Of a stretch of 64,000 bases of DNA, positions 36,417 to 56,044 are shown piece by piece. The translations under genes were made by a program, and so were the position numbers. Origin of the DNA: Variovorax paradoxus. Lineage in GTDB: Bacteria; Pseudomonadota; Gammaproteobacteria; Burkholderiales; Burkholderiaceae_C. The notes below the pieces were generated by a model. That model had not been told where the DNA came from. It worked only from the letters and a program-made list of their open reading frames with translations, and did no database searches. Positions within the stretch are counted from its first letter, which is position 1, and every line of letters begins with the position of its first letter. The stretch lies in NCBI GenBank assembly GCA_016806145.1, contig CP063166.1, positions 186,001 to 250,000 of the forward strand, read 5' to 3'.

Positions 36417-37616
36417 TCAGTGCGCGCCCGACACCACCACCGGGATCTCGGTCGCCGGCGGCGTGTTGCGGCTGCGGCCGCAGCGCACGATGCCGTCGAT
36501 CATCACCATGCCCACGCCCGGGATGTCGCCGAGCTGCACGCTCTCGAGCAGGCCCGGCGCGGGCGAATGCTGCGCGCGGTCCATGAACACGAAATCGGCA
36601 TCGCGGCCGACCTCGATCAGGCCGCAGTTGAGCTTGCGGATCTTCGCGGTGTTGCCGGTGGCGAAGCAGAACACCAGCTCGGCCGGGATGTTCGCGATCG
36701 ACGACAGCATCGCGACCATGCGCAGGATGCCCAGCGGCTGCACGCCCGAGCCCGCGGGACCGTCGGTGCCGAGGATCACGCGGTGCGGGCACTTGAGTTC
36801 GAGCGCCGCCTTGGCCGCCGCGATCGCCACCTTCTCGTTGCCGTTGTGCACGATCTCGATCGCGCGCGAGCTCTTCTCGCAGAGCTCGCACACGTGGGCC
36901 TCGGGCAGCGAGGTGTGGCCGCCGTTGATGTGGCCGATGACGTCGGCGTCGGCCTCGAGCACCACGTCCTTGTCGATCAGGCCCGAGCCCGGGATCGATG
37001 GGCCGCCGGTGTGGATCGTGCTCTGGATGCCGTACTTGCGCGCCCAGGCCACCATCTCCTTGGCCTCGTAGCCGGCCTTCACCGAACCCAGGCCGACCTC
37101 GCCGAGCAGGCCCACGCCGGCCTCGGCGAGCTCCTTGAAGTCGCTCTCGACCATGCCCTTCTCGATCACCGGCGCGCCGGCCAGCACCTTCACGCCGCCG
37201 GGGCGGAAGTTGTCGAAGGCGCGCTGTGCCGTGATGGCCAGGGCCTTCAGGCCCACGATGTCCTTGGGGCGGCCGGGCAGGTGCACTTCGCCGGCCGAGA
37301 TCATGGTGGTCACGCCGCCGTGCATGGTGGAGTCGATCCAGCCGAGCTGGCCCTGGCGCGGCGTCCAGTCGCCGAACACCGGGTGCACGTGGCTGTCGAT
37401 CAGGCCGGGCGCGACGCAGGTCAGGCGCGCGTCGATGACGGTCTTCGCGCCCTCGAGGTCGCAGTCCTTCTGCTTGCCGATGGCGACGATCAGGCCGTCG
37501 TTCACCACGATGGTGTCGGCGTCGAGGATGGGCTTGTCGATGTCGCCCGAGAGCAGCAGCCCTATGTTCTGGATGACGACCTTGCCCGACTTTCCGCTGC
37601 TCGCGATTTCTGCCAT
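36417..37616 (-). CDS. ena: enamidase (6-oxo-1,4,5,6-tetrahydronicotinate amidohydrolase)
   Basis: The 399-aa amidohydrolase closely follows the Eubacterium barkeri enamidase pattern: VVIQNIGLLLSGDI at the start, LIDSHVHPVFGDWTPRQ (HxH), HGGVTTMISAGEVHLPGRPKD, STIHTGGPSIPGS, GHINGGHTS, GTDGPAGSGVQPLGILR and a CGRSRNTPPA tail. The enzyme hydrolyses 1,4,5,6-tetrahydro-6-oxonicotinate to 2-formylglutarate plus ammonia. AGGA lies 9 nt before the ATG. The start lies 55 nt inside the end of the upstream tetR gene, so the two are translationally linked. This gene ties the cluster to the reductive nicotinate route. Confidence 0.88.
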   Translation of the reverse strand: MAEIASSGKSGKVVIQNIGLLLSGDIDKPILDADTIVVNDGLIVAIGKQKDCDLEGAKTVIDARLTCVAPGLIDSHVHPVFGDWTPRQGQLGWIDSTMHGGVTTMISAGEVHLPGRPKDIVGLKALAITAQRAFDNFRPGGVKVLAGAPVIEKGMVESDFKELAEAGVGLLGEVGLGSVKAGYEAKEMVAWARKYGIQSTIHTGGPSIPGSGLIDKDVVLEADADVIGHINGGHTSLPEAHVCELCEKSSRAIEIVHNGNEKVAIAAAKAALELKCPHRVILGTDGPAGSGVQPLGILRMVAMLSSIANIPAELVFCFATGNTAKIRKLNCGLIEVGRDADFVFMDRAQHSPAPGLLESVQLGDIPGVGMVMIDGIVRCGRSRNTPPATEIPVVVSGAH

Positions 37617-38332
37617 TTCGTGTTGTCCTCGTCGTGGGGGGGAGTGTTGTTGTCCTGCAGATCGTCCGCGCGCACGGTGCGCAGCACGGTCTCGATCACG
37701 AAGTCTTCCCAGTGCCGGATCGCGTCCGGCGACTCGAGCGGCTCGCCCAGGAAGGCCGTGAGCGTGTGGCGGTTGGAGGTGTAGAAATAGCCGGTGGACG
37801 CGATCAGCAGGTAGATGTCGCGCGCCACGAGGTCCTTGCGGAACAGCCCCTGGGCCGCGCCGCTCGCGAGGATCTCCGAGATGATCGCCACCGCCCGCGA
37901 CGAATACTCGCGCGCGCGCAGCGACTTCGAGATGTGCCGGCCCTTGTGCAGGTTCTCGGTGTTGAGCAGCGTCACGAACTCGGGGTTCTTGCGGTAGTAG
38001 CCGAGCACGAAGCGGATCACTTCGGTGAGCGCCTCCACCGGGCGCGAGGCGTCGAGCGCGATCGCGGCCTCGGCGTCGTCCATGCGCTGGTAGATGCCCT
38101 CGAGCACCGCGATGAACAGGCCTTCCTTGCTGCCGAAGTAGTAGTAGATCATCCGGTCGTACGACTTGGCGGCCTTGGAGATCTTCTCCACGCTGCCGCC
38201 GTCGTAGCCGTACTTGGCGAACACCTTGGTCGCCGACTTGAGGATGCTGTCGCGCGTGGCCTGGGCCGCGGCCTCGCGCACGCCGGTGCGGCGCTGGGGC
38301 TTGGGCTTGGTGATGGAGCGGCTGTCGGCCAT
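37562..38332 (-). CDS. TetR-family regulator of the nicotinate cluster
   Basis: The 256-aa protein has a basic leader of about 25 residues, a TetR HTH (DSILKSATKVFAKYGYDGGS, then SYDRMIYYYFGSKEGLF) and a helical ligand domain. Its last 18 codons overlap the enamidase start. Lying between ferredoxin reductase and enamidase genes, it is the only regulator in the nicotinate region of this window. It is therefore the best candidate to bind the palindromes at 39287-39341. The effector is probably a pathway intermediate; this is inference. Confidence 0.85.
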   Translation of the reverse strand: MADSRSITKPKPQRRTGVREAAAQATRDSILKSATKVFAKYGYDGGSVEKISKAAKSYDRMIYYYFGSKEGLFIAVLEGIYQRMDDAEAAIALDASRPVEALTEVIRFVLGYYRKNPEFVTLLNTENLHKGRHISKSLRAREYSSRAVAIISEILASGAAQGLFRKDLVARDIYLLIASTGYFYTSNRHTLTAFLGEPLESPDAIRHWEDFVIETVLRTVRADDLQDNNTPPHDEDNTKWQKSRAAESRARSSSRT

Positions 38333-38351
38333 CGAGCGCGCGGCGTCCTGC

Positions 38352-39125
38352 TTACTTTTCCGCGAAGGCGCGTTCGACGACGAAGTCGCCCGGCGTCGAG
38401 GTGTTGCCTTCCTTGAAGCCGCGTGCCTCGAGGATGTGCTTGAGGTCGACCAGCAGGCCCGGGCTGCCGCACAGCATCACGCGGTCTTCGGCGGCGTTGA
38501 TCGGCGGCATGCCGAGGTCGTCGGTGAGCTTGTTGCTCGAGATCAGGTCGGTGATGCGGCCCTGGTTGCGGAACTCCTCGCGCGTGACCGTGGGGTAGTA
38601 CAGCAGCTGCTTGGCGACCATCTCGCCGAGGAACTCGTGCTTGGGCAGGTGGTCGGTCACGAGGTCGTGGTAGGCCAGCTCGTCGACCTGGCGCACGCCG
38701 TGCACCAGGATGACCTGCTCGAACTTCTCGTAGGTCTCGGGGTCGCGGATCACGCTCATGAACGGGGCCAGGCCGGTGCCGGTGCCGAACAGGTAGAGGC
38801 GCTTGCCGGGCAGCGTGTAGTCGATCAGCAGCGTGCCGGTGGGCTTGCGGCCCACGATGATGGTGTCGCCCACCTGGATGTGCTGCAGCCGCGAGGTCAG
38901 CGGGCCGTCTTCCACCTTGATGCTCAGGAACTCGAGATGCTCCTCGTAGTTCGGGCTCACGATGCTGTAGGCGCGCAGCAGCGGCTTCTCGTTGACGCGC
39001 AGGCCGATCATCGTGAAGTGGCCGTTGGAGAAACGCAGCGCCGGGTCGCGCGTGGTGGTGAAGGTGAACAGGCGGTCGGTCCAGTGGTGGACGCTCAGGA
39101 CCTTCTCTTCGCTGAATGCACTCAT
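38352..39125 (-). CDS. fpr: ferredoxin-NADP reductase
   Basis: The 257-aa protein has the FAD-binding RAYSIVSPNYEEHLEF, the NADP site FGTGTGLAPFMSVIRD and a C-terminal FVVERAFAEK, all typical of the bacterial Fpr subclass. It exchanges electrons between NADPH and ferredoxin or flavodoxin in the cytoplasm. The start at 39125 (MSAFSEEK) fits the family; the longer frame to 39302 runs through the promoter region. It faces the 6-hydroxynicotinate reductase gene across a shared promoter, so it may provide the low-potential electrons that enzyme needs. Confidence 0.9.
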   Translation of the reverse strand: MSAFSEEKVLSVHHWTDRLFTFTTTRDPALRFSNGHFTMIGLRVNEKPLLRAYSIVSPNYEEHLEFLSIKVEDGPLTSRLQHIQVGDTIIVGRKPTGTLLIDYTLPGKRLYLFGTGTGLAPFMSVIRDPETYEKFEQVILVHGVRQVDELAYHDLVTDHLPKHEFLGEMVAKQLLYYPTVTREEFRNQGRITDLISSNKLTDDLGMPPINAAEDRVMLCGSPGLLVDLKHILEARGFKEGNTSTPGDFVVERAFAEK

Positions 39126-39286: not shown

Positions 39287-39307
39287 CTACATTGACTCTC
39301 AATGTAG
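39287..39307. promoter_or_regulatory. perfect 9-3-9 palindrome, likely operator 1
   Basis: Arms CTACATTGA (39287-39295) and TCAATGTAG (39299-39307) are exact reverse complements around CTC. Size and symmetry suit a dimeric repressor such as the TetR protein encoded at 37562. Confidence 0.65.
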
Positions 39308-39323
39308 TGAATGCAACATGAAA

Positions 39324-39430: not shown

Positions 39431-41056
39431 ATGACGGAACACACGAAGACAGACGGATTGCCGGGCATGGACGTGCCGGTGGTCGCCGAGGCCGGCCCCG
39501 GCGGTTTCGGCAAGGCGCCGTTGCGCAACGAGCGCATGAGCGCGGCCAAGGTCGAATGCAATGCCTGCCCGGTGTTGTGCCAGATCTCCGACGGGCGCAC
39601 CGGCGCCTGCGACCGCTATGCCAACCGCGAGGGCGTGCTGGTGCGCGTCGATCCGGTGGTGCTGCTGCGCCGCCAGCTCGCGAGCGATGCGCCCGCGCTG
39701 GTGGCGTTCGACCGCACGGCGGCGGCCGAAGACGGCAGGGCCAAAGAGTCATCGCCCGACTGGAATGGCGACCTGCTGCATGCCGACGAGGTCTTCGTCA
39801 CCGGCGTCGGTTCCTCCACCACCTATCCCGACTACAAGCCCGCGCCCTTCATCGTCGCCTCCAAGGCGCAGGGCGTGGACATGGTCACCGTGGTCACCGA
39901 GGGCATCTTCAGCTACTGCAGCTTCAAGGTGAAGATCGACACCGACCGCTTCCTCGGCGCCGAGCAGGCCAACGTGCGCTACCGCGGCGAGGTGGTGGGC
40001 CACGTCACCACGGCCGAGTACGGCTCGCAGATGCTGTCGCTGGGCGGCGTGCACCACCTCACGGGCGGCAGCAAGAAGGAAGGCCGCATGACGGCCGAGC
40101 TGATGCAGCTGCTGGGCAACAAGAAGGCCATCGAATGCACCATCGACGGCGGCGCCAGCCTGGTGATCCAGGCCGGCAAGGCGCCGATCGTCAACGGCGT
40201 GGAGGAGCAGCGCATGCGCGTGGGCTGCGGCTCCGCCGCGGTCGGCATCTTCGCGCGCCAGTTCGCGGGCGTGGCCGACGAGGTGGTGGTGGTCGACGAC
40301 CACATCACCGGCGTGCTGACCGAGCACCAGGCCGGCCGCTGCCTCGACATGCCGCCCTCGGGCATCCAGATGCTGGGCCGCAAGTCGACGCCGGGGCGCT
40401 ACTTCCAGGTCGCCAATCCGGGCAACGGCTGGGGCGGCACCGACATCGCCGATCCGCTGTCGATCATCGAGGGCTGGGAGGAGGGCGTGGCCAAGCCCGG
40501 CCTGCGCCTGCTCATGACCTCGACCACCGGCGAGCATGCGCAGTGGTACGTGCTCGACGACGCGCTGCAGCCCGTCGAGCAGCCGATGCCTCCCGAGGTG
40601 AAGCGCATCGTCGAGCGCATCGGCGAGAACTGCGAACCCTCGCTGTGCACCGTGCTGTTCCTCGGCGGTGCCGGCGGCAGCCTGCGCGCGGGCGTCACCG
40701 AAAACCCGGTGCTGCTCACGCGCGCCATCAAGCGCGCGCTGGTCAACGTCACCTGCGGCGGCGCGCCGGCCTATGTGTGGCCGGGCGGCGGCATCACGGT
40801 GATGGCCGACGTCATGCGCATGCCCGACAACAGCTTCGGCACCGTGCCCACGCCCGCGATCGTCGCGCCCATCGAGTTCAGCATGCGGCGCGCCGACTAC
40901 GAGGCGCTCGGCGGCCACATGGAGCATGTCTTCCCGCTCGAGCAGGCGCTCGCGCGCGGTGCGTGGCAGGAAGACGGCGCACCGCTCGCGCGCCAATGGC
41001 TCGTCATCGACGAAGCCAACCCGTGGCCGCTGGGCCACGCGCCCATGCTGGGTTGA
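39431..41056 (+). CDS. hnr: 6-hydroxynicotinate reductase
   Basis: This 541-aa protein has Cys43-x2-Cys46-x3-Cys50-x9-Cys60 (VECNACPVLCQISDGRTGAC), a likely [4Fe-4S] site. A long domain of glycine-rich segments follows (GVGSSTTYPDYKPAPF, GGASLVIQAGKAPI, FLGGAGGSLRAG). I assign 6-hydroxynicotinate reductase from recall of how this family is annotated and from its enamidase neighbour. In the anaerobic pathway that enzyme reduces 6-hydroxynicotinate to 1,4,5,6-tetrahydro-6-oxonicotinate with ferredoxin. It is divergent from the fpr gene. Homology to the anaerobic enzyme should be confirmed by alignment. Confidence 0.75.
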   Translation: MTEHTKTDGLPGMDVPVVAEAGPGGFGKAPLRNERMSAAKVECNACPVLCQISDGRTGACDRYANREGVLVRVDPVVLLRRQLASDAPALVAFDRTAAAEDGRAKESSPDWNGDLLHADEVFVTGVGSSTTYPDYKPAPFIVASKAQGVDMVTVVTEGIFSYCSFKVKIDTDRFLGAEQANVRYRGEVVGHVTTAEYGSQMLSLGGVHHLTGGSKKEGRMTAELMQLLGNKKAIECTIDGGASLVIQAGKAPIVNGVEEQRMRVGCGSAAVGIFARQFAGVADEVVVVDDHITGVLTEHQAGRCLDMPPSGIQMLGRKSTPGRYFQVANPGNGWGGTDIADPLSIIEGWEEGVAKPGLRLLMTSTTGEHAQWYVLDDALQPVEQPMPPEVKRIVERIGENCEPSLCTVLFLGGAGGSLRAGVTENPVLLTRAIKRALVNVTCGGAPAYVWPGGGITVMADVMRMPDNSFGTVPTPAIVAPIEFSMRRADYEALGGHMEHVFPLEQALARGAWQEDGAPLARQWLVIDEANPWPLGHAPMLG

Positions 41057-41089
41057 GCGATGCCTGTCTTGCAGCTGGCAGTGGCTCTT

Positions 41090-41205: not shown

Positions 41206-42099
41206 ATGAGCGCCCAACGCACGGCGCTCGACGAGCACCGCTGGCACTTCAACCACGGCCCGATCGACATCGTGGCCGAGGCGCACGGCGACCGCTACGC
41301 GGTGGCGGCCGCGCACGATGCGGCCTGGGCGCGCTTCGCGCACGTGCTCGACGAACTGGTGCACGAGCTGCCGCTGCTGCGCCTGCCGGTCACCGACAAG
41401 ATGCGCCCGCGCGGCGTGGTGGCGCGCCGCATGTGGGATGCCTGCGCGGCGTTCGCGCCGACCTTCATCACGCCGATGGCCGCGGTCGCGGGCTCGGTGG
41501 CGCAGGAACTGATCGCCTTCTACCAGCGCCCCGGCATCGAGCGTGCCTGGATCAACAACGGCGGCGACATCGCCGTGCATCTCGCGCCGGGCCAGACCGC
41601 GCGCGTGGGCGTCTACGCGGACCTCGCGCGCTTCGACTGGCGCGATGCCAATGGCCTCGTCGACACCGACGGCCAGTTCGAACTGCGCGCCGACCAGCCG
41701 GTGCGCGGCGTCGCCACCAGCGGCTGGCGCGGGCGCAGCTTCTCGCTCGGCATCGCCGACAGCGTGACGGTTCTGGCGGCCACCGCGGCGCAGGCCGATG
41801 CGGCCGCGACCGTGATCGCCAACGCGGTCGACGTCGACAGCGATGCGATCCGCCGCGTGCCCGCGAGCGAGCGCAAGGACAACAGCGACCTCGGCGACAC
41901 GCTCGTCACCGTCGACGTGCCGCCACTGCCCCCCGCGCAGGTGCGCAGCGCACTCGATACGGGCGCGGTGTGCGCCCGCGTCCTGCAACAAGGCGGGCTC
42001 GCATGGGCCGCTCTGCTCGTTTGCCAGGGGCAGTGGCGGCTGGTCGAGCCCTTATGCTCGAAGCTAGGCTTCCGTGCAGTTGGTTCAGTAATTGCTTAA
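41206..42099 (+). CDS. UPF0280 family protein (ApbE-like fold)
   Basis: The 297-aa protein has the UPF0280 pattern: FNHGPIDIVAEAHGDRYAV at the start, FITPMAAVAGSVAQELIAFY, AWINNGGDIAVHLAPG and GVATSGWRGRSFSLGIADSVTVLA. The family shares a fold with ApbE flavin transferases, but its activity is not established. Placed between the 6-hydroxynicotinate reductase and two DUF1185 genes, it may mature or assist the flavo-Fe-S reductase; that is inference. The first 149 bp upstream are repeat family B. Confidence 0.75.
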   Translation: MSAQRTALDEHRWHFNHGPIDIVAEAHGDRYAVAAAHDAAWARFAHVLDELVHELPLLRLPVTDKMRPRGVVARRMWDACAAFAPTFITPMAAVAGSVAQELIAFYQRPGIERAWINNGGDIAVHLAPGQTARVGVYADLARFDWRDANGLVDTDGQFELRADQPVRGVATSGWRGRSFSLGIADSVTVLAATAAQADAAATVIANAVDVDSDAIRRVPASERKDNSDLGDTLVTVDVPPLPPAQVRSALDTGAVCARVLQQGGLAWAALLVCQGQWRLVEPLCSKLGFRAVGSVIA

Positions 42100-42120
42100 C
42101 GAAAAGCAAGGTTCTTTTTC

Positions 42121-42765
42121 ATGATCGATATCCGCCGAGTCTTCACCCAGGTCGAGCACATCCACCACGAGTTCGGGCCGCGTGCCCAGACGCCGCTGGT
42201 GCGTGGTGCCATCGCCGCCGTGCTGACCAATCCCTTCGCGGGCCGCTACGAGCCCGACATCCTGCCGATGATGAGCCTGCTCGATCCGGTGGGCCTCGAG
42301 ATGGCGCACAAGCTGCACGCCGCGATGGACGTGCCGCTCGAGCAGCTCGCCACCTACGGCAAGGGCGCCATCGTCGGCGCCGCGGGCGAGCTCGAGCATG
42401 GCGCGCTGTGGCACGTGCCCGGCGGCTATGCGATGCGCGAGCTGCTCGGCTGGAAGGGCGACCGCGTCGCCTATGCCAAGGGCACCGTCGACGAGAAGAA
42501 GACCGGCCAGCCCGGCAATGCGCTGTCGATCGTGCCCTCGACCAAGAAGGTCGGCGCGCCCGGCGCCACGCTCGATGTGCCGCTGACCAACATCAACGCC
42601 AGCTACGTGCGCGGGCAGTTCGATGCGATCGAAGTGCGCGTGCCCGGCGCGCCCGCGGCCGACGAGATCGTGTTCATCCTCGCGATGAGCACCGGCTACC
42701 GCGTGCATGCGCGCGTCGGCGGCCTGCTCGCCGAGAACATCGCCAAGTGGGACGGCCTGCGCTGA
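42121..42765 (+). CDS. amino acid synthesis family protein (DUF1185), copy 1
   Basis: The 214-aa protein has TNPFAGRYEPDILPMM near residue 38 and the conserved YGKGAIVGAAGELEHGALWHVPGG, both marks of the DUF1185/AA_synth family, whose function is unproven. It has no signal peptide or membrane helix. A second, diverged copy follows after 46 bp. The two end alike (GGLLAENIAKWDGLR and GGLQAGEIKGEDGLR), which suggests tandem duplication and a heteromeric complex. A role in the ring-cleaved part of nicotinate breakdown is inferred from position only. Confidence 0.75.
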   Translation: MIDIRRVFTQVEHIHHEFGPRAQTPLVRGAIAAVLTNPFAGRYEPDILPMMSLLDPVGLEMAHKLHAAMDVPLEQLATYGKGAIVGAAGELEHGALWHVPGGYAMRELLGWKGDRVAYAKGTVDEKKTGQPGNALSIVPSTKKVGAPGATLDVPLTNINASYVRGQFDAIEVRVPGAPAADEIVFILAMSTGYRVHARVGGLLAENIAKWDGLR

Positions 42766-42811: not shown

Positions 42812-43396
42812 ATGACCGCCAACATCCGCAAGCTCGTCGTCCAGGTCGACGAAACCCGCAAGGAAATGGGCCGCGACATCGCGCCGCCCACGCGCCGCGC
42901 CGTCGCCATCGCCGTGATCGCCAACCCCTACGCGGGCCGCTACAGCGAGAACCTCGACGAGCTGATCGCGATCGGCGAGGAGCTCGGCGCGCTGCTGGGC
43001 CAGAAGGCCGTGAAGGCGCTGGGCATCGAGCCCGGCCAGGCGCAGAGCTACGGCAAGGCCGCGATCGTCGGCGAAGGCGGCGAGCTCGAGCATGCGGCCG
43101 CGATCCTGCATCCCAAGCTCGGCGCGCCGCTGCGCGTGGCGGTCGAGAAGGGCGCGGCGCTCGTGCCCTCGGCCAAGAAGCTCGGCACCCTCGGCACCGC
43201 CATCGACGTGCCACTGGGCCACAAGGACGCGGCCTTCGTGCGCAGCCATTTCGACGCCATCGAGGCCCGCGTGTCCGACGCCCCGCGCGCCGGCGAGATC
43301 GTGGTGGCCGTGGCGGTCACCGACAGTGGCCGCCCACTGCCGCGCATCGGCGGCCTGCAGGCCGGCGAGATCAAGGGCGAAGACGGCCTGCGCTGA
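42812..43396 (+). CDS. amino acid synthesis family protein (DUF1185), copy 2
   Basis: The 194-aa protein is a paralogue of the gene at 42121. It keeps IANPYAGRYSENLDEL and SYGKAAIVGEGGELEHAAAILHP but lacks some 20 residues of copy 1 in the middle. AAAGG precedes the ATG. It is the last gene before the ABC-importer genes. As for copy 1, the family has no settled activity; the doubled conserved GELEHxA motif may hold catalytic or metal-binding residues (Glu, His). Confidence 0.75.
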   Translation: MTANIRKLVVQVDETRKEMGRDIAPPTRRAVAIAVIANPYAGRYSENLDELIAIGEELGALLGQKAVKALGIEPGQAQSYGKAAIVGEGGELEHAAAILHPKLGAPLRVAVEKGAALVPSAKKLGTLGTAIDVPLGHKDAAFVRSHFDAIEARVSDAPRAGEIVVAVAVTDSGRPLPRIGGLQAGEIKGEDGLR

Positions 43397-43471: not shown

Positions 43472-44677
43472 ATGATCCCCTTGCGCCATGTTTTCAGCGC
43501 GGCTTCCGTCCTGACCCTGACCTGCGCCCTCGTCCCCGCGCACGCCCAGGGCGTGATCAAGATCGGCGAGATCAACAGCTACAAGGCGCAGCCGGCCTTC
43601 CTCGAGCCCTACAAGAAGGGCATGGAACTCGCGGTCGACGAGATCAACGCCAAGGGCGGGGTCAATGGCCGGAAGATCGAACTGATCAGCCGCGACGACA
43701 ACGCCAACCCCGGCGATGCGGTGCGCGTGGCCGAGGAGCTGATCTCGCGCGAGAAGGTCGACGTGCTCGCGGGCGCCTTCCTCTCGAACACCGGCCTGGC
43801 GCTGACCGACTTCGCGAAGCAGAAGAAGTTCTTCTATCTGGCCGCCGAGCCGCTGACCGACAAGATCGTCTGGAGCAACGGCAACCGCTACACCTACCGC
43901 CTGCGTCCCTCGACCTACATGCAGGTCGCGATGCTCGTGCCCGAGGCCGCCAAGCTCAAGAAGAAGCGCTGGGCCATCGTCTATCCCAACTACGAGTACG
44001 GCCAGTCCTCGGTCGCGACCTTCAAGACTCTGCTGAAGGCCGCGCAGCCCGACGTGGAGTTCGTCGCCGAGCAGGCGCCGCCGCTGGGCAAGGTCGATTC
44101 GGGCAGCGTGGTGCAGGCGCTCGCCGATGCCAAGCCCGACGCAATCTTCAACGTGCTGTTCGGCGCCGACCTCTCGAAGTTCGTGCGCGAGGGCAACACC
44201 CGCGGCCTGTTCAAGGACCGTGAAGTGGTCAGCGTGCTGACCGGCGAACCCGAGTACCTCGATCCGCTGAAGGACGAGGCACCCAATGGCTGGATCGTGA
44301 CCGGCTATCCGTGGAACGGCATCAAGACGCCCGAGCACAAGGCCTTCCTCGACGCCTACCAGGCCAAGTTCAAGGACTACCCGCGCCTGGGCTCGGTGGT
44401 CGGCTACAGCGCCATCCACTCGATCGCGGCGGGCATCCAGAAGGCCGGCAGCACCGACACCGAGAAGCTGGTCGCGGCCTTCAAGGGCCTGCAGCTCGAC
44501 AGCCCCTTCGGCAAGATCAGCTACCGCGCGCAGGACAACCAGTCGACCATGGGCGCCTACGTGGGCAAGACCAAGAACGACGGCGGCAAGGGCGTGATGG
44601 TCGATTACGTCTACCTCGACGGCGCCAAGTTCCAGCCGAGCGACGACGAAGTCAAGAAGATGCGCCCCGCCGACTGA
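43472..44677 (+). CDS. branched-chain-type ABC transporter substrate-binding protein 1
   Basis: The 401-aa protein has a signal peptide (cleavage near AHA-QG, residues 25-26) and the Leu/Ile/Val-binding type I fold (IKIGEINSYKAQPAFLEPYKKGMELAVDEIN). AGGAG precedes the ATG. The ligand-binding fold accepts amino acids, aromatic acids or amides. In this cluster nicotinate or nicotinamide is the likely cargo, by position only. A 202-bp gap with a repeat separates it from the permease. Confidence 0.88.
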   Translation: MIPLRHVFSAASVLTLTCALVPAHAQGVIKIGEINSYKAQPAFLEPYKKGMELAVDEINAKGGVNGRKIELISRDDNANPGDAVRVAEELISREKVDVLAGAFLSNTGLALTDFAKQKKFFYLAAEPLTDKIVWSNGNRYTYRLRPSTYMQVAMLVPEAAKLKKKRWAIVYPNYEYGQSSVATFKTLLKAAQPDVEFVAEQAPPLGKVDSGSVVQALADAKPDAIFNVLFGADLSKFVREGNTRGLFKDREVVSVLTGEPEYLDPLKDEAPNGWIVTGYPWNGIKTPEHKAFLDAYQAKFKDYPRLGSVVGYSAIHSIAAGIQKAGSTDTEKLVAAFKGLQLDSPFGKISYRAQDNQSTMGAYVGKTKNDGGKGVMVDYVYLDGAKFQPSDDEVKKMRPAD

Positions 44678-48452: not shown

Positions 48453-49178
48453 ATGAACGACACGCACCGCAGACGCTTCCTCCAATCCACGGCCGCCCTC
48501 GGCCTGCTCGGCGCCTCGGGCGCGCTCTTCGCCGCCGGCGCGAAGATCAAGCCCGGCGACAAGGCCGTGCTGATCGTGGTCGACGTGCAGAACTGCTTCA
48601 TCGACGGCGGCACGCTGCCGGTCAAGGGCGGTGCCGACGTGGTGCCGGTCATCAACCAGCTGGCCGCCTCGTTCCAGAACATCGTGGTCACGCAGGACTG
48701 GCACACCCAGGGCCATGCCTCGTTCGCGAGCGCGCACGCGGGGCAGAAGCCCTTCAGCAGCATCAAGCTGAACTACGGCAACCAGGTGCTGTGGCCCGAC
48801 CACTGCGTGCAGGGCACGGACGACGCGGCGCTGCACAAGGACCTCAAGCTGCCGACCGCGCAGCTGATCATCCGCAAGGGCTTCCACGCCGACGTCGACA
48901 GCTACTCGGCCTTCGAGGAGGCCGACCGCAAGACCTCGACCGGCCTGGCCGGCTATCTCAAGGCGCGCGGCATCAAGACCGTGTTCGTGACCGGCCTGGC
49001 GACCGACTTCTGCGTCGCCTGGACCGCGCTCGATGCACGCAAGGCCGGCTTCGATGCCTACGTGATCGAGGACGCCACGCGCGCCATCGACCTCAACGGC
49101 TCGCTGGCCGCGGCCTGGAAGCAGATGAGCGCCAAGGGCGTGAAGCGCATCCAGTCGGCCGACATCCAGGGCGCCTGA
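48453..49178 (+). CDS. pncA: Tat-exported nicotinamidase
   Basis: The 241-aa protein starts with a twin-arginine signal (RRRFLQSTAALGLLGASGAL) and then has the cysteine-hydrolase core: Asp in LIVVDVQNCFIDGG, metal-binding DWH and H, PDHCVQGT, Lys in IIRKGFHADVDSYS and the nucleophile in GLATDFCVAWTALDA. This is PncA, which converts nicotinamide to nicotinate plus ammonia. Usual PncA proteins are cytoplasmic; the signal predicts a periplasmic enzyme acting on external nicotinamide before import. It lies between the importer ATPase and a second binding protein. Confidence 0.87.
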   Translation: MNDTHRRRFLQSTAALGLLGASGALFAAGAKIKPGDKAVLIVVDVQNCFIDGGTLPVKGGADVVPVINQLAASFQNIVVTQDWHTQGHASFASAHAGQKPFSSIKLNYGNQVLWPDHCVQGTDDAALHKDLKLPTAQLIIRKGFHADVDSYSAFEEADRKTSTGLAGYLKARGIKTVFVTGLATDFCVAWTALDARKAGFDAYVIEDATRAIDLNGSLAAAWKQMSAKGVKRIQSADIQGA

Positions 49179-49257: not shown

Positions 49258-50418
49258 ATGACGATTTCCCTCTCCAGGCGCTCCCTGGTGGCCGGCGGCG
49301 CGGCCCTCGCGCTCGGCCCCGGCCTGCTGTCCGCCGCGCGCGCCGAGAACGGCGTGAGCGACGGCGCCATCCGCATCGGCCAGTCGGCCGTCTTCAGCGG
49401 CCCGGCCAAGGACTTCGGCATCGACTACCGCGCCGGCATCAAGCTGCACTTCGACCGCGTCAACAAGGGCGGCGGCATCAACGGGCGCCGGCTCGAGCTG
49501 GTGAGCTACGACGATGTCTACGAACCCGCGAAGACCGCACTCAACACCGCGAAGCTGATCGACGAGGACAAGGTGTTCGCGCTCACCGGCTACGTCGCCA
49601 CCGGCAACCTCGCGGCCGCGATGCCGCTGGCCGAGAAGGCGGGCGTGCCGATGTTCGCGCCGCTGGTGGGCACCACCTCGTTCCGCACCAAGACCAACCG
49701 GCTGCTGTTCCACGTGCGCGCGGGCTACGACCTCGAGCTGCGCAAGATCATCAGCCACCTGTCGACCATCGGCATCCAGTCGATCGCGGTGGTGCACCAG
49801 GACAGCGCCTTCGGCAAGTCGAACCTCGCGACCTGCGAGGAACTCGCGGCCGACTACAAGGTGAAGGTGGTCAAGACCTTCCCGCTGGCGATCGCCGCCG
49901 AGGATGCGAAGCCGGTGGTCGCGGGCCTGGCCGAGGCCAGGCCGGGCGCGGTCGTGATGATCATGGCCGGGCGCCAGGTCGAGGTCTTCATGCGCGACTA
50001 CCGCGCGAGCGCGGGCGGCGCGCCGCTGTACACGCTGTCGGTGGGCATCACCGACGCGGCCGGCTCGGCGCAGCGGCTCGAGGGCAAGCTCGCGGGCCTG
50101 GTCACGGCCAGCATCGTGCCGCCGCCGCAGGCCGTGCGCGTGCCCATCGTGGCCGAGTACCAGCGCGACCGCGCCGAGTTCGGCGAGAAGATCGACAGCT
50201 ACACCGCGCTCGAGGGCTACATCGTCGCGCGCGTGATGGCCGAGGGCCTGCGCCGCGGCGGCAAGGCGCTCACGCGCGAGAGCTTCGTCGCGGGCCTCGA
50301 GAGCATCGGCAGCACGCGCTTCGGCGACTTCCCGATCGAGTACGGGCCGAGGAACCACAACGGCTCGAACTTCGTGGACCTGGAGATGTACACCCGTGAC
50401 GGCCAGCTGCGGCGCTGA
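49258..50418 (+). CDS. branched-chain-type ABC transporter substrate-binding protein 2
   Basis: The 386-aa protein has a signal peptide with a twin-arginine-like RRSLVAGGAAL and the type I periplasmic fold (IRIGQSAVFSGPAKDFGIDYRAGIKLHFDRVN, VAVVHQDSAFGKSNLA). It is only distantly related to the binding protein at 43472. The single permease may therefore take two ligands. It overlaps the nicotinate dehydrogenase small-subunit gene by 23 nt, which supports nicotinate or a related pyridine as ligand. Confidence 0.88.
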   Translation: MTISLSRRSLVAGGAALALGPGLLSAARAENGVSDGAIRIGQSAVFSGPAKDFGIDYRAGIKLHFDRVNKGGGINGRRLELVSYDDVYEPAKTALNTAKLIDEDKVFALTGYVATGNLAAAMPLAEKAGVPMFAPLVGTTSFRTKTNRLLFHVRAGYDLELRKIISHLSTIGIQSIAVVHQDSAFGKSNLATCEELAADYKVKVVKTFPLAIAAEDAKPVVAGLAEARPGAVVMIMAGRQVEVFMRDYRASAGGAPLYTLSVGITDAAGSAQRLEGKLAGLVTASIVPPPQAVRVPIVAEYQRDRAEFGEKIDSYTALEGYIVARVMAEGLRRGGKALTRESFVAGLESIGSTRFGDFPIEYGPRNHNGSNFVDLEMYTRDGQLRR

Positions 50419-50902
50419 GGGCCGTGCCGAACCGCTGCAGCTGAGAGTCAACGGCCGCGCGCAGGCGCTCGCGGTGCCGCGCGAGGCCTCGCTGCTGCAG
50501 GTGCTGCGCAACGACCTCGGCCTCAACGGACCCAAGTACGGCTGCGGCCTCGGCCAGTGCGGCGCCTGCACGGTGCATGTCGACGGCATGGCCGCGCGCG
50601 CCTGCGTGATCCCCGCGCACGGCGTGGCGGGCCGCGCCATCACCACGCTCGAGGGCCTGGGCACGCGCGGCGACTGGCACCCGGTGCAGGCCGCCTTCGA
50701 GGAGGCGCAGGCCGCGCAGTGCGGCTACTGCCTCAACGGCATGGTGATGCAGGTGGCGGCATTGCTGGCGCGCGAGCCGGGCGCCAGCGAGGCGCGCATC
50801 CGCAGCGAGCTCTCGGGCAACCTGTGCCGTTGCGGCACGCACATCGAGATCCTCGACGCGGCGCAGCGCGCGGCCCGCCAGCTGCGGGCGACGCAGCCAT
50901 GA
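50396..50902 (+). CDS. nicA: nicotinate dehydrogenase 2Fe-2S subunit
   Basis: The 168-aa protein (GTG start) has two [2Fe-2S] clusters: the plant-type site C50-x4-C55-x2-C58 with C70, and the four-helix site CGYC with CRC. This is the small subunit of molybdenum hydroxylases such as NicA and IorA. It passes electrons from the molybdopterin centre to the cytochrome part of the large subunit. The start lies inside the binding-protein gene, and the stop overlaps the large-subunit ATG, so stoichiometry is coupled. Confidence 0.85.
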   Translation: MTASCGAEGRAEPLQLRVNGRAQALAVPREASLLQVLRNDLGLNGPKYGCGLGQCGACTVHVDGMAARACVIPAHGVAGRAITTLEGLGTRGDWHPVQAAFEEAQAAQCGYCLNGMVMQVAALLAREPGASEARIRSELSGNLCRCGTHIEILDAAQRAARQLRATQP

Positions 50903-53900
50903 CACGGCGCGCCGACCTGCCGCGCACGCGCGCGGAGTTCCTCGCCGCCGAAGGCGTGCTGCTGGTGGTGCGCGAGACCCCGCCGGCGCCGCCGCCGGCC
51001 AAGGGCCAGCCGGCGTTCATCGCGGGCAATCCCGCCGAGGGCGACGAGGTGCTGCTCGCGGTGTGGGACGACGGCAGCGCCTCGGCGCTCAACGGCCACG
51101 TCGACCTCGGCACCGGCATCCAGACCGCGCTGGGCCAGATCGTGGCCGAGGAGCTCGAGCTCGGCATGCCCTGCGTGCGCGTGATGCTTGGCGACACCGC
51201 GCGCGCGCCCAACCAGGGCGCGACCATCGCGAGCGCCTCGATCCAGATCCACGCGCAGCCGCTGCGCCTCGCGGCCGCGCAGGCGCGCGCCTGGCTGCTC
51301 GCGCGCGCGTCCGAGCAATTGGGCGTGGCCGTCGAGGCATTGCAGGCGCGCAACGGCATCGTGCGCGTGGCCGAGTCGCCCGACCGGCACCTGAGCTATG
51401 CCGAACTGGTGGCGGGCCAGCGCACCGTGCTCAAGCTCGATGCGAAGGCGCAACCCAAGGACCCGGCCGACTACCGCGTGGTCGGCACGCGGCAGGCGCG
51501 CGTCGACATCCCGGCCAAGCTCGCGGGCGAACTGGTCTTCGTGCACGACATGCGCGTGCCGGGCATGCTGCACGGCCGCGTGGTGCGCCCGCCCTATGCG
51601 GGCGCCGACCACGGCGACTTCATCGGCAACACGCTCGAGTCGGTCGACGAATCGTCGATCGCCCACATTCCCGGCATCCGCGCGGTGGTGGTGATCCGCG
51701 ACTTCGTCGGCATCGTGGCCGAGCGCGAGGAGCACGCCGAGCAGGCGCTGCGCGAACTGCGCGTGCGCTGGAAGCCCTGGCCCGGCATGCCCGGCCTCGA
51801 CGACCTCGCGCAGGCGCTGCGCGACAACCCCTCGACGCAGCGCCTCTTGGTCGACGAGGGCGACGTCGACGGCGCGATCGCGCGCGCGGCGCATCCGATG
51901 CCGCGCACCTATGTCTGGCCCTACCAGATGCATGCCTCGATCGGGCCCTCGTGCGCGCTGGCCGAATGGCAGCCCGAGGACGGCAGCGGCATGCAATTGC
52001 GCTGCTGGGCCGGCACGCAGAACCCGCACGTGCTGCGCGCCGACCTCGCGAAGCTGCTCGGCGTGCGGGACCTGCAGGTCGACGTGGTGCGCATGGAAGC
52101 CGCGGGCTGCTATGGCCGCAACGGCGCCGACGACGTGGCCGCCGATGCCGCGCTGCTCGCGCGCGCCGTGGGCGCGCCGGTGCGCGTGCAGCTCACGCGC
52201 GAGCAGGAGCATGCGTGGGAGCCCAAGGGCGCCGCGCAACTGATGGAGATCGATGGCGGCCTCGCGGCCGATGGCAGCGTCGCGGCCTACGATTTCCAGA
52301 CCTCCTATCCGTCGAACGGCGCGCCCACGCTCGCGCTGCTGCTCACGCGCGCCATCGAACCGGTGGCGCAGGCCTACGAGATGGGCGACCGCACCGCGCG
52401 CCCGCCCTACGGCTACGACAACCTGCGCGTGAAGGTCAACGACATGGCGCCGATCGTGCGCGCCTCGTGGCTGCGCGGCGTGTCGGCGCTGCCGAGCTCG
52501 TTCGCGCACGAGTCGTACATCGACGAGCTCGCGACCGCGGCCGGCGTCGACCCGGTGCAGTTCCGGCTGCGCCACCTCGAGGACCCGCGCGCGATCGAGC
52601 TGGTGGAGGCCACGGCGCAGAAGGCCGGCTGGCGGCTGCGCACCGGCCCGCAGGAGAACGCCGATGGCGGGCTCGGTGCCGGCGGCGACATCCTGTTCGG
52701 CCAGGGCTTCGCCTATGCGCGCTACGTGCACAGCAAGTGGCCCGGCTTCGGCGCCGCCTGGGCCGCCTGGGTGGCCGACGTCGAGGTCAACCGCCGAACC
52801 GGCGAGGTGCATGTGCGCCGCGTGGTGGTGGGGCACGACGCGGGCCTGCTGGTCAATCCCGCGGGCGTCGAGCACCAGGTGCACGGCAACGTGATCCAGA
52901 CCACGAGCCGCGCGCTCAAGGAGCAGGTGCAGTTCGCGCCGCAGTCCGGGCCGGCCGAGGGCGGCGAACGACTGCCGGGCGTGCTGCCCTCGGGCGTGGT
53001 CGCGAGCCGCGAATGGGGCAGCTACCCGATCATCAACTTCCGCGAAGTGCCGGTGATCGAGGTGATGCACATGCCGCGCCCGGGCGAGCCGTCGCTGGGC
53101 GCGGGCGAGTCCTCGTCGGTGCCGGGCACGGCGGCGATCGCGAACGCGATCTTCGATGCGACGGGCGTGCGCTTCAGGGCGCCGCCGTTCACGCCGGAGA
53201 CGGTGCTGGCGGAGTTGAATCGGGGGCTGTTGCCTTCCCCTGCGGGAGACGGCGGGGCGGGGGGGGCGTCGCGGGTCGATGGTGATGCCGCGGTGCCCCC
53301 ATCCCGGCCTTCCCCCAGAGGGGGAAGGAGCAAGGCCATCTGGCCACGGGGCAAGGGTTTGTGGGCCACGGGCGCGGCGCTCGTGGTCGGCGGCATCGGC
53401 GTCGTCGCGGGCCTGCTCGGCTGGCGCTCGTCGATCGCGCCGGTGTCGCTCACCGCGCCGGTCTACAGCGAGGCCACCATCGAGCGCGGCCGCGTGCTCG
53501 CGGCGCTCGGCGACTGCGCGGTCTGCCACACCGCGCCGGGCGGCGCGCCCAACGCCGGCGGCCGCGCGATGGACACGCCCTTCGGCACGCTCTACACCAC
53601 CAACCTCACGCCCGATGCCGAGACCGGCCTCGGCCGCTGGTCCTTCAGCGCCTTCCAGCGCGCGATGCGCGAGGGCGTGTCGCGCGACGGCCATCACCTC
53701 TATCCGGCCTTCCCCTACACCGCCTTCGCGAAGACCAGCGACGACGACCTGCAGGCGCTCTATGCCTACTTCATGGCGATGCCCGCGGTGCGCGCCGAAA
53801 CGCCGAAGTCCGAACTCAAGTTCCCGTTCAGCCTGCGGCCGCTGATGGCCGGATGGAACGCGCTCTTCCACGATCCCGCGCCGCTCGCGCCCGTGGCCAC

Positions 53901-54648
53901 GCAGAGCGCCGAGTGGAACCGCGGTGCCTACCTCGTCAACGGCCTCGGCCATTGCGGCGCCTGCCACACGCCGCGCAACGCACTCGGCGCGGAGCAGGGC
54001 GGCAGCGCCTTCCTGTCGGGCGCGATGGTCGATGGCTGGGAGGCGCCGTCGCTCACGATGCGCTCGAAGTCCGCCATGCCCTGGGATGCCGAGTCGCTCT
54101 ACCGCTACCTGCGCGACGGTCATTCGCCGCGCCACGGCATCGCGGGCGGCCCGATGGCCGAGGTGGTGCGCGAGCTCGGCGCCGTGCCCGATGCCGACAT
54201 CCGCGCGATGGCGACCTACCTCGTCTCGTTCAATCCCGAGCCCCTGCCCGAGGCCGCCGCGCAGGCCGAGGCGCGGCGCATCGTCGACACCGCGGCGCGC
54301 ACGCAGGGCCGGCTGCTCGGTCCCGCGCAGCGCATGTTCGACAGCGCCTGCGCCGCCTGCCACCACGACGGCGACGGTCCCACGCTGCTGGGCGTGAACA
54401 CGCCGCTCGCGCTCAACGGCAACCTCGCGAGCGCGAAGCCCGACAACCTGCTGCGCACCATCCTCGATGGCGTGCGCCATCCCGCGACGCGCGACATCGG
54501 CTTCATGCCGGCCTTCCGCGACGCGCTCGACGACCGCCAGATCGCCGAGCTCGCGGGCTACATGCGCGCGCGCTTCGCGCCGCAGGAGCCCGCCTGGCCC
54601 GACCTGCAGGCCGAGGTCGCGCGCGTGCGCGCGGCGCCGGGGCACTGA
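50899..54648 (+). CDS. nicB: nicotinate dehydrogenase large subunit, molybdopterin plus three c-type haems
   Basis: The 1249-aa protein has a molybdopterin-binding part (residues 1-775; GTQNPHVLRADLAKLLG, EAAGCYGRNGADDVAAD, GAGESSSVPGTAAIANAI near the end). A Pro/Gly/Arg-rich linker (776-820), one membrane helix (about 821-845) and a cytochrome part with CAVCH (873), CGACH (1019) and CAACH (1151) follow. This is the domain order of NicB, which hydroxylates nicotinate to 6-hydroxynicotinate and sends electrons to the respiratory chain. Residues 799-811 are encoded by repeat family B. An Ior-type or other N-heterocycle hydroxylase is possible; the pathway context favours nicotinate. Confidence 0.82.
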   Translation: MTRRADLPRTRAEFLAAEGVLLVVRETPPAPPPAKGQPAFIAGNPAEGDEVLLAVWDDGSASALNGHVDLGTGIQTALGQIVAEELELGMPCVRVMLGDTARAPNQGATIASASIQIHAQPLRLAAAQARAWLLARASEQLGVAVEALQARNGIVRVAESPDRHLSYAELVAGQRTVLKLDAKAQPKDPADYRVVGTRQARVDIPAKLAGELVFVHDMRVPGMLHGRVVRPPYAGADHGDFIGNTLESVDESSIAHIPGIRAVVVIRDFVGIVAEREEHAEQALRELRVRWKPWPGMPGLDDLAQALRDNPSTQRLLVDEGDVDGAIARAAHPMPRTYVWPYQMHASIGPSCALAEWQPEDGSGMQLRCWAGTQNPHVLRADLAKLLGVRDLQVDVVRMEAAGCYGRNGADDVAADAALLARAVGAPVRVQLTREQEHAWEPKGAAQLMEIDGGLAADGSVAAYDFQTSYPSNGAPTLALLLTRAIEPVAQAYEMGDRTARPPYGYDNLRVKVNDMAPIVRASWLRGVSALPSSFAHESYIDELATAAGVDPVQFRLRHLEDPRAIELVEATAQKAGWRLRTGPQENADGGLGAGGDILFGQGFAYARYVHSKWPGFGAAWAAWVADVEVNRRTGEVHVRRVVVGHDAGLLVNPAGVEHQVHGNVIQTTSRALKEQVQFAPQSGPAEGGERLPGVLPSGVVASREWGSYPIINFREVPVIEVMHMPRPGEPSLGAGESSSVPGTAAIANAIFDATGVRFRAPPFTPETVLAELNRGLLPSPAGDGGAGGASRVDGDAAVPPSRPSPRGGRSKAIWPRGKGLWATGAALVVGGIGVVAGLLGWRSSIAPVSLTAPVYSEATIERGRVLAALGDCAVCHTAPGGAPNAGGRAMDTPFGTLYTTNLTPDAETGLGRWSFSAFQRAMREGVSRDGHHLYPAFPYTAFAKTSDDDLQALYAYFMAMPAVRAETPKSELKFPFSLRPLMAGWNALFHDPAPLAPVATQSAEWNRGAYLVNGLGHCGACHTPRNALGAEQGGSAFLSGAMVDGWEAPSLTMRSKSAMPWDAESLYRYLRDGHSPRHGIAGGPMAEVVRELGAVPDADIRAMATYLVSFNPEPLPEAAAQAEARRIVDTAARTQGRLLGPAQRMFDSACAACHHDGDGPTLLGVNTPLALNGNLASAKPDNLLRTILDGVRHPATRDIGFMPAFRDALDDRQIAELAGYMRARFAPQEPAWPDLQAEVARVRAAPGH
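53294..53331 (-). repeat. dispersed repeat, family B copy 2, inside the nicB coding sequence
   Basis: The reverse complement matches 41090-41127 in 37 of 38 positions. It lies in frame within the linker between the molybdopterin and cytochrome parts. The flanking bases from 53233 are also C/G-tract rich (CCTTCCCCTGCGGGAG) and look like part of the same element. The reading frame stays open throughout. Confidence 0.85.
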
Positions 54649-54662
54649 CAGCCGAATACGGG

Positions 54663-54778
54663 CAGCCGAACGCAGAAGGAATACCAAAGGAGCGCAGAAG
54701 TCGCAGAAGAGCAAGCCAATTTTTCTGGCTGTTCTTCTGCGACTTCTGCGCAACCTTCGCGACCTCTGCGTTCGGCTG
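54663..54778. repeat. long intergenic hairpin repeat, family A copy 2
   Basis: A nested hairpin lies between nicB and the FAH gene. Outer arms are CAGCCGAACGCAGA (54663-54676) and TCTGCGTTCGGCTG (54765-54778). Inner arms of 19 bp are at 54692-54710 and 54733-54751, with the complement GCGCAGAAGTCGCAGAAGA. The segment GCGCAACCTTCGCG and CCTCTGCGT match copy 1 (21230-21334). It could terminate or attenuate transcription before the FAH gene. Confidence 0.85.
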
Positions 54779-54853
54779 TCCGCATTTCGCCTGCGCCCGC
54801 ACGGCGCTACGATGCCCGCGCATTCCTTCCAACCACCAGAGACAACCAACGCC

Positions 54854-56044
54854 ATGCCACTCGATCTCCAGACCGCCACCAGCCTCCCGCAAGACGCCGA
54901 CCGCGCCACCCTCGTTGGCCGTCTCTGGCAACCGGGCGTGGGCCCCGTGCTCGTGGCCGTGCAGGGTGACGGCCTGCACGATCTGTCGCGGCTCGCGCCC
55001 ACGATGAGCGACCTGCTCGAGCGGCAGGAGCCGCCCGCCGAGGCCGTGCAGCGCTTGCTGCGCAGCGGCCAGGCACCGCGCATCGCCGCGCTGGCCGAGG
55101 TGCTCGCCAACAGCGACGGCGGCGCGCGCGACGAGGACCGGCCCTGGCTGCTCGCGCCCTGCGACCTGCAGGCCGTCAAGGCCAGCGGCGTGACCTTCGT
55201 CGCGAGCCTGCTCGAGCGCGTGATCGAGGAACAGGCGCGCGGCGACGCATCGAAGGCCGAGGCCACGCGCGCTGCGCTCGGCGGCGTGCTCGGCGACAAC
55301 CTCGCCGACATCGTGCCGGGCTCGCCCGAGGCGATGAAGGCCAAGGAGGTGCTGATCGCGCAGGGCGCATGGTCGCAGTACCTCGAGGTCGGCATCGGGC
55401 CCGACGCGGAGATCTTCACCAAGGCGCCCGTGCTCTCGTCGGTGGGTACCGGTGCCGACATCGGCATCCACGCGGCCTCGGTGTGGAACAACCCCGAGCC
55501 CGAGGTCGTGCTCGCTGTCAACAGCCGCGGCGAGACCCTGGGCGCCGCGCTCGGCAACGACGTCAACCTGCGCGACTTCGAAGGCCGCAGCGCGCTGCTG
55601 CTGGGCAAGGCGAAGGACAACAACGCCTCGTGCGCGATCGGTCCGTTCATCCGGCTGTTCGATGCGCACTTCGGCATCGCGCAGGTGCGCCGCATCACGG
55701 TCGCGCTCGAGGTGCGCGGTCCCGAGGGCTTCGTGCTCGAGGGCTCGAGCTCGCTCGCGAAGATCAGCCGCGATCCGCTCGACCTCGTGGCGCAGGCCAT
55801 CGGCATCCATCACGACTATCCCGACGGCCTCATGCTGTTCCTCGGCACGATGTTCGCGCCCACGCAGGACCGCCACGGTCCGGGCCAGGGCTTCACGCAC
55901 ACGGTCGGCGACATCGTGCGCATCGCGGCGCCCGAACTCGGCGCGCTCGTCAATCGCGTCGCGCATGCCGACAAGGCCCCGCGCTGGACCTTCGGCATCG
56001 GCGCGTTGATGCGCAACCTCGGCGCGCGCGGCCTCCTGCATTGA
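54854..56044 (+). CDS. fumarylacetoacetate hydrolase (FAH) family enzyme
   Basis: The 396-aa protein has the FAH core in its second half (WSQYLEVGIGPDAEIFTKAPVLSSVGTGADIGI, WNNPEPEVVLAVNSRGE, GNDVNLRDFEGRSALLLGKAKDNNAS), with the acidic metal ligands of this family. FAH enzymes hydrolyse C-C bonds of 1,3-dicarbonyl acids or decarboxylate and isomerise them. As the last gene of the nicotinate island it could cleave 2-formylglutarate into glutarate and formate; that is inference. Similar proteins act as 2-keto-3-deoxy sugar acid dehydratases, an alternative. The start at 54854 was chosen for fit to the family. Confidence 0.75.
   Translation: MPLDLQTATSLPQDADRATLVGRLWQPGVGPVLVAVQGDGLHDLSRLAPTMSDLLERQEPPAEAVQRLLRSGQAPRIAALAEVLANSDGGARDEDRPWLLAPCDLQAVKASGVTFVASLLERVIEEQARGDASKAEATRAALGGVLGDNLADIVPGSPEAMKAKEVLIAQGAWSQYLEVGIGPDAEIFTKAPVLSSVGTGADIGIHAASVWNNPEPEVVLAVNSRGETLGAALGNDVNLRDFEGRSALLLGKAKDNNASCAIGPFIRLFDAHFGIAQVRRITVALEVRGPEGFVLEGSSSLAKISRDPLDLVAQAIGIHHDYPDGLMLFLGTMFAPTQDRHGPGQGFTHTVGDIVRIAAPELGALVNRVAHADKAPRWTFGIGALMRNLGARGLLH

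Follow-up and report, generated by a model that had tools for sequence, protein, structure and literature searches.

A gene cluster of Variovorax paradoxus probably dedicated to reductive nicotinate catabolism, and the UPF0280 and PF06684 proteins encoded beside its 6-hydroxynicotinate reductase

The nic pathway of Pseudomonas putida consists of NicAB-NicC-NicX-NicD-NicF-NicE, and NicC is the enzyme that oxidises 6-hydroxynicotinate in this pathway. The anaerobe Eubacterium barkeri, which ferments nicotinate by means of a different Mo/Se dehydrogenase, is said to reduce 2-formylglutarate to 2-(hydroxymethyl)glutarate. Its fermentation includes steps catalysed by a 6-hydroxynicotinate reductase (Hnr) and by an enamidase (PMC9304392, PMC3511419), the latter reported to be bifunctional (PMC9304392). 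Finally, an aerobic route via 1,4,5,6-tetrahydro-6-oxonicotinate (THON) and glutarate, together with a gene cluster for it, has been described for Azorhizobium caulinodans ORS571 and Bradyrhizobiaceae SG-6C (PMC3511419). Here, we analyse an hnr-containing cluster of Variovorax paradoxus (GCA_016806145.1, a 9.44-Mb genome in three contigs), located within a stretch of 64,000 nucleotides, C1:186001-250000 (CP063166.1), that we refer to as the window.

It is quite probable, judging from the genes present, that this cluster is an aerobic island for the catabolism of nicotinamide and nicotinate by the reductive route. An earlier note on the window had proposed such an island, mentioning a tetrahydro-6-oxonicotinate intermediate in Azorhizobium, which is indeed in print (PMC3511419). 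The outline of that proposal agrees with the genes and their synteny, but the arrangement is not new in kind, since a like cluster has been published (PMC3511419). The published clusters share with ours the aerobic lifestyle and the predicted route via THON and glutarate. The window cluster is betaproteobacterial and comprises genes for a nicotinamidase, a TetR protein, a ferredoxin-NADP reductase (FNR), a UPF0280 protein, two PF06684 proteins and a second binding protein. The aerobic reductive route has received little genetic follow-up in the literature searched, and what we add are comparative results on UPF0280, PF06684 and a probable second type of ring opener, HyuAB, none of which we found in that literature.

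The Hnr cluster and its predicted route

Every gene named in the earlier note is present as an open reading frame. Genes for the enamidase, the TetR protein and FNR are on the minus strand, and those from hnr to the FAH-family gene on the plus strand. The features are as follows.

36417..37616, minus strand, enamidase, predicted to open the ring of tetrahydro-6-oxonicotinate (Amidohydro_1; PDB entry 2vun)
37562..38332, minus strand, TetR-family regulator, RutR-like (TetR_C_29, E=1e-39; TetR_N, E=1e-12)
38352..39125, minus strand, FNR, likely electron donor for Hnr (PRK10926, 138.8 bits, under the cut-off of 390)
39288..39306, no strand, palindrome TACATTGA-CTC-TCAATGTA in the divergent promoter region, putative TetR operator
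39431..41056, plus strand, Hnr (listed relatives 80-94% identical)
41206..42099, plus strand, UPF0280/COG2122 protein with an ApbE fold, candidate factor for the maturation of Hnr (synteny, co-occurrence, Foldseek)
42121..42765, plus strand, PF06684 (AA_synth/DUF1185) protein 1 (E=1.3e-62, 210.8 bits, gathering score 27)
42812..43396, plus strand, PF06684 protein 2 (E=1.9e-70, 236.3 bits, gathering score 27)
43472..44677, plus strand, ABC substrate-binding protein 1 (Peripla_BP_6, E=7e-75)
44880..46808, plus strand, fused LivH-LivM-type permease (BPD_transp_2 in two stretches)
46870..47634, plus strand, LivG-type ATPase
47631..48374, plus strand, LivF-type ATPase
48453..49178, plus strand, nicotinamidase with an N-terminal twin-arginine-like signal (PRK11609, 180.3 bits, NCBIfam cut-off 174)
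49258..50418, plus strand, ABC substrate-binding protein 2 (Peripla_BP_6, E=2.4e-53)
50396..50902, plus strand, NicA-like [2Fe-2S] subunit of nicotinate dehydrogenase (Fer2_2, Fer2)
50899..54648, plus strand, NicB-like molybdenum subunit carrying a fused three-haem cytochrome c domain (MoCoBD_1/2, Cytochrom_C)
54854..56044, plus strand, FAH-family enzyme, a neighbour (PDB 9kkt, E=4e-126)

Gene identities, synteny and co-occurrence are read from the sequence; the substrates, the direction of the steps and the cell compartments in the following scheme are our predictions. An exported nicotinamidase would generate nicotinate, which the ABC importer would take up and the NicA/NicB-like molybdenum enzyme would hydroxylate to 6-hydroxynicotinate. 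Hnr, receiving electrons from FNR, would convert this compound into 1,4,5,6-tetrahydro-6-oxonicotinate, and the enamidase would open the ring to yield ammonia and 2-formylglutarate. The PF06684 proteins would then channel 2-formylglutarate towards glutarate, decarboxylating or tautomerising it to glutarate semialdehyde. UPF0280 would act as a dedicated helper of Hnr, probably in building its cofactors, and the TetR protein would repress from the palindrome between the FNR and Hnr genes.

The cluster combines the components by which a reductive, THON-type pathway can be recognised: an enamidase of the E. barkeri type, an Hnr homologue and a nicotinate hydroxylase. Firstly, residues 11-390 of the enamidase align with the solved E. 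barkeri enzyme (2vun; phmmer against PDB, E=1.1e-108), the tail CGRSRNTPPA pointed out in the earlier note is present, and the motifs HxH, HTGG and SRNTP were each found in all 79 homologues taken. Secondly, Hnr is 80-94% identical to 120 relatives among the matches listed, the closest being 93-94% identical and, where named, from Variovorax (in two protein searches, each of the 8,000 and 7,999 candidates scored had E<=1e-5). The name 6-hydroxynicotinate reductase is carried by 36 of the 57 named rows, and 20 read hypothetical protein only. These names and the conserved gene order described below support the original label of a reductase-like protein. A four-cysteine motif, CxxCPxxCx9C, is present in 114/114 Hnr copies taken, as would fit an Fe-S protein. 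Hnr matched no Pfam or NCBIfam family above cut-off, has no relative in the PDB and gave no match in viral contigs. The identity of Hnr rests on its named relatives, in an alignment that does not include E. barkeri Hnr itself, and this counts against our assignment; the homologue of SG-6C has been reported to share 42% identity with the E. barkeri enzyme (PMC3511419). The hnr gene of one genome, G242 (L140), appears as two overlapping matches in different frames, owing to splitting of the gene, to its decay into a pseudogene or to a fault in the assembly.

Thirdly, the dehydrogenase has the layout of NicAB, in which the [2Fe-2S] subunit is a separate protein and the molybdenum subunit continues into a three-haem cytochrome c: the window encodes a Fer2/Fer2_2 protein and a molybdenum subunit with CxxCH motifs at residues 873, 1019 and 1151. 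The NicA-like subunit is 56-62% identical to its counterparts in four NicC-type clusters (L166-L169), and the NicB-like subunit is 53% identical over 1258 aa to that of L169, its molybdenum part being 54-58% identical to those of L166-L168. No Hnr or enamidase match was found in these four stretches. They share with the window cluster the NicAB-type hydroxylase and, in L167 (13557-18231), also the importer: the binding protein is 77%, the permease 64%, and the ATPases are 72% and 76% identical to those of the window. In addition, the MarR proteins of Hnr clusters of the alphaproteobacterial type are 34-41% identical to the MarR protein of L166 in 7/7 cases tried; the latter was labelled NicR by its position, and two Hnr plasmid records name their MarR protein NicR. 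The shared importer and the NicR-like MarR proteins point to nicotinate or 6-hydroxynicotinate as the substrate. The nicotinamidase, whose N-terminus reads MNDTHRRRFLQ, the NicAB-like dehydrogenase and the importer with two binding proteins are as had been proposed for the window.

Across 80 named Burkholderiales loci, the best 80 of 589 Hnr relatives, the arrangement Ena-TetR-FNR / Hnr-UPF0280-PF06684-PF06684-importer-NicAB recurs, although some genes are lost (tblastn; the misses include contig ends). The UPF0280 gene is present in 79/80 of these loci, the sole miss (L051) being a 3-kb contig. PF06684 copy 2 was found in 76 loci and copy 1 in 69, enamidase in 70, TetR in 71, FNR in 64, the molybdenum subunit in 59 and nicotinamidase in 35; the importer is represented by its permease in 72 loci, by binding protein 1 in 67 and by binding protein 2 in 17. 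Thus, UPF0280 and PF06684 protein 2, which the earlier note did not mention, are commoner than the importer genes, and the TetR and FNR genes that it did mention are regular members, FNR being also found near Hnr on plasmids. In 20 further loci, UPF0280 adjoins Hnr in all 20 and a PF06684 match is present in 19. Taking all 115 Hnr loci together, UPF0280 is encoded directly downstream of Hnr on the same strand in 114, and 113 of these 114 have at least one PF06684-type match. Hnr also occurs on 26 plasmid records, including 12 of Sulfitobacter and 4 of Rhizobium, and six annotated Hnr plasmids (from the set L174-L181, L202, L203) have entries for UPF0280 and for amino acid synthesis family proteins immediately following Hnr.

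The absence of a NicC-type monooxygenase from the window, noted before, was confirmed by a scan that placed all 53 FAD_binding_3 matches of the genome outside it. These matches were sorted by fetching 11 stretches and scanning 7 proteins against NCBIfam and 1 against the PDB, and the rest by a NicC query, for which matches were listed at E<=1e-100 only. This raises the question of whether nicotinate is instead degraded mainly via 2,5-dihydroxypyridine, the Hnr cluster serving another N-heterocycle or being used conditionally. Two proteins encoded elsewhere speak for this alternative and weigh against a reductive route as the sole one. A NicC-like protein (C1:3735882-3736988, L152) is 43% identical to P. 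putida NicC, which is also its best PDB match (E=3e-101), and a NicX-type dioxygenase (C2:835949-836977) is 66% identical to the protein labelled NicX by eye in the NicC-type locus L167. The latter gene lies in an island (C2:824000-852000; L172, L173) with Rieske, Amidohydro_2 and alpha/beta-hydrolase genes according to Pfam and, by eye, molybdenum hydroxylase genes; the alpha/beta-hydrolase looks NicD-like by eye. On the other hand, the nine nearest NicC matches in other genomes, among the matches listed, are 63-72% identical, well above the 43% of the NicC-like protein, and its gene adjoins genes of the aldoxime dehydratase family (a haem-type dehydratase) and the nitrilase family (a carbon-nitrogen hydrolase). 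Moreover, the C2 island resembles what we take to be picolinate degradation (pic) genes, and the nicotinamidase and NicAB genes are part of the Hnr cluster. We consider it improbable that the 2,5-dihydroxypyridine route predominates. The earlier note had envisaged a NicC homologue elsewhere that carries all the flux; a relative, at 43% identity, does exist. Both routes can coexist, as genome G491 has Hnr together with a 70% identical NicC, and given the NicC-like and NicX-type proteins, nicotinate may not be degraded by the reductive route alone.

UPF0280 as a candidate partner of Hnr

The association between Hnr and UPF0280, which we take to be COG2122, was also found in a sample of the phylum. 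In draws of 398 genomes of the phylum per scan, with scoring confined to the top 3 or 6 first-pass candidates of each genome, Hnr (E<=1e-5) was found in 32 genomes and UPF0280 (E<=1e-10) in the same 32, on the contig of Hnr and within about 0.6 kb of it in every case. The other 366 genomes of the draw gave no UPF0280 match. (The two draws were treated as the same 398 genomes: the matching and listed genomes agree, and the other 346 were assumed to.) No link between UPF0280 and Hnr was found in the literature searched (titles and abstract openings among the matches listed). The structural model of UPF0280 (mean pLDDT 83) was matched by Foldseek to 28 entries at E<=0.001, each of them either 2o34 (E=1.5e-10) or one of the ApbE/FmnB/Ftp structures (ApbE/FmnB from E=1.6e-5). 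We propose, on the strength of this fold and of the co-occurrence, that UPF0280 probably serves in the maturation of an Hnr cofactor, involving either flavin or sulfur.

The Hnr of E. barkeri reportedly holds a covalently bound flavin, and UPF0280 might be the flavin transferase that attaches it. Besides the co-occurrence with Hnr and the ApbE fold, this explanation is favoured by the Pfam ApbE family being found in 12/23 UPF0280 members at E<=0.01. However, two features of ApbE systems were not found, and this weighs against UPF0280 acting in that manner: no conserved histidine is present among the 23 sequences in the segment matching the ApbE catalytic loop, where E. coli ApbE has some 30 residues without an aligned counterpart, and the ApbE target motif, given as D-x-x-[ST]-G-A-[ST] (PMC12052999), is present in 0/114 Hnr copies. 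A role as flavin transferase therefore seems rather unlikely to us.

Alternatively, UPF0280 may deliver sulfur or help to build the Fe-S sites of Hnr, having nothing to do with flavin. In Desulfovibrio, a COG2122 protein is needed for homocysteine synthesis together with DUF39 and a NIL/ferredoxin protein (PMC5764234), and MA1715 has been described as a sulfur-trafficking protein (PMC12068725); the four-cysteine motif conserved in all Hnr copies would provide a suitable site. The likeness to that system lies in the ApbE-like COG2122 family (PMC5764234), and the difference in UPF0280 being tied here, in Pseudomonadota, to Hnr instead of DUF39. Against a sulfur role, no HcyBio (PF01837) match was found in 299 genomes of the phylum, while 3 of 14 control genomes did match, and none in 59 Hnr members (by Pfam; a profile-profile comparison of Hnr with DUF39 was not made). 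Overall, we regard delivery of sulfur as a possible explanation, to be held tentatively.

PF06684 proteins and a probable second type of ring opener

PF06684 shows a similar, though less strict, association: it was found in 31/32 Hnr genomes versus 3/30 genomes outside the Hnr list (G107, G388 and G466). The two PF06684 proteins are candidates for a 2-formylglutarate decarboxylase or tautomerase. Such an activity would join the enamidase to the glutarate route of Azorhizobium (PMC3511419).

Some observations argue against this assignment. PF06684 gave no match in G357, one of the Hnr genomes, and additional PF06684 copies are found in other catabolic neighbourhoods, from which it follows that the role of the family may be broader. 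Judging by eye, the extra copies in L194, L199 and L201 have genes for a luciferase-like monooxygenase and an aldehyde dehydrogenase as neighbours, in gene sets that look trigonelline-like, and those in L192, L195 and L196 adjoin FAH-like genes; others lie elsewhere, and V. paradoxus itself has an extra copy outside the Hnr cluster (C2:1554733-1555260, L191). Furthermore, TgnF of the trigonelline pathway, a homologue of HcdD from 7-hydroxycoumarin breakdown, has been reported to stimulate succinate semialdehyde oxidation, and the stimulating effect expected of HcdD could not be observed (PMC7913881). It is possible, with a likelihood not far short of even, that PF06684 acts elsewhere, as an enamine hydrolase, an assistant in ring hydrolysis or in amino acid metabolism, and does not decarboxylate 2-formylglutarate. 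In addition to the HcdD and TgnF relatives in other ring-breakdown pathways, this alternative can draw on the Bacillus chorismate mutase-like fold and hexameric state of the family, for which a role in amino acid metabolism was proposed from context (PMC2954203); the PDB relatives of PF06684 protein 1 are 3byq and 2qtp. What speaks against it is that PF06684 is present in Hnr genomes both with the enamidase and with hydantoinase-type openers, which makes a step common to both more likely.

The enamidase (E<=1e-60) is present in 18/32 Hnr genomes, and in 0/9 genomes without Hnr that came from the NicC search, of which eight have a 63-72% identical NicC and the ninth has a relative at 43%. That the remaining 14 of the 32 Hnr genomes lack it runs counter to a route that depends on this enzyme throughout. 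However, a HyuA orthologue is present in 14/14 of these genomes, versus 2/18 of those with enamidase (G341 and G412; Fisher p=5e-7, relatedness ignored), an orthologue being a protein 61-86% identical to the HyuA encoded beside Hnr on a Paracoccaceae plasmid, where the next matches are 44-46% identical. The gene lies within a stretch of roughly 20 kb around Hnr in 8/14 genomes; in the remaining 6 it is located at a distance of 75-100 kb or on a different contig. Mapped onto the Hnr tree, the enamidase label requires 2 changes, forced by well supported branches, which corresponds to at least two switches and not to fourteen. HyuA and HyuB, which are Hydantoinase_A and Hydantoinase_B proteins, are encoded near Hnr on several plasmids. 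They occur near Hnr in the absence of enamidase in L131, L132, L135, L175, L176, L178, L179, L185, L189 and L202, and plasmid L203 carries HyuAB, an amidohydrolase and Hnr together.

The hydantoinase-oxoprolinase family, which includes the caprolactamase CapAB, consists of ATP-dependent lactamases (PMC8453981), and this would fit a lactam such as tetrahydro-6-oxonicotinate. HyuA and HyuB belong to the same family as CapAB, from which they would differ in their substrate, tetrahydro-6-oxonicotinate; they are also encoded outside the window cluster. These data suggest that in 14/32 Hnr genomes ring opening falls to another class of enzyme, which is probably ATP-dependent. No link between hydantoinase/oxoprolinase and nicotinate was found in the literature searched, within the scope given above.

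Combining these associations, one can picture Hnr, UPF0280 and PF06684 as a single module, in which UPF0280 would be an obligate, Hnr-specific maturase without the canonical ApbE motif, PF06684 would be the missing 2-formylglutarate decarboxylase or tautomerase that diverts E. barkeri chemistry to glutarate in aerobic bacteria, and ring opening would be interchangeable between the Fe-Zn enamidase and ATP-dependent HyuAB. In this complete form we find the model attractive and yet doubtful. If true, it would fill the steps from tetrahydro-6-oxonicotinate to glutarate and extend the known roles of ApbE-fold proteins; the co-occurrence would give UPF0280 and PF06684, whose functions as families are unclear, specific roles.

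Regulation and neighbouring sequences

The TetR protein may act on the intergenic region between the divergent FNR and Hnr genes. The palindrome TACATTGA-CTC-TCAATGTA located there is perfect and is a candidate for the TetR operator; with up to two mismatches allowed, it has no second match in the window and was found in 0 of 100 shuffles. Its exact or looser form (ACATT-gap-AATGT) is present upstream of Hnr in 27/77 loci examined, indicating that it is limited to certain lineages.

The FAH-family gene that the earlier note had counted among the genes of the island is present, but its membership of the pathway is not supported. It follows the NicB gene in the two genomes of the genus examined (the window and L182), and is absent from the matching Comamonadaceae plasmid L174 and from L183. 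Thus, it is probably a genus-level neighbour that lies outside the pathway. Type VI secretion genes at 56207-60014 follow directly after the island, with TssA, TssB and TssC above cut-off and an Hcp-like protein slightly below it. Finally, a 41-bp repeat (98%) is located at 41087-41127, between the Hnr and UPF0280 genes, and its inverted copy at 53294-53334 lies within the NicB-like gene, between the molybdenum and cytochrome parts of the coding sequence.

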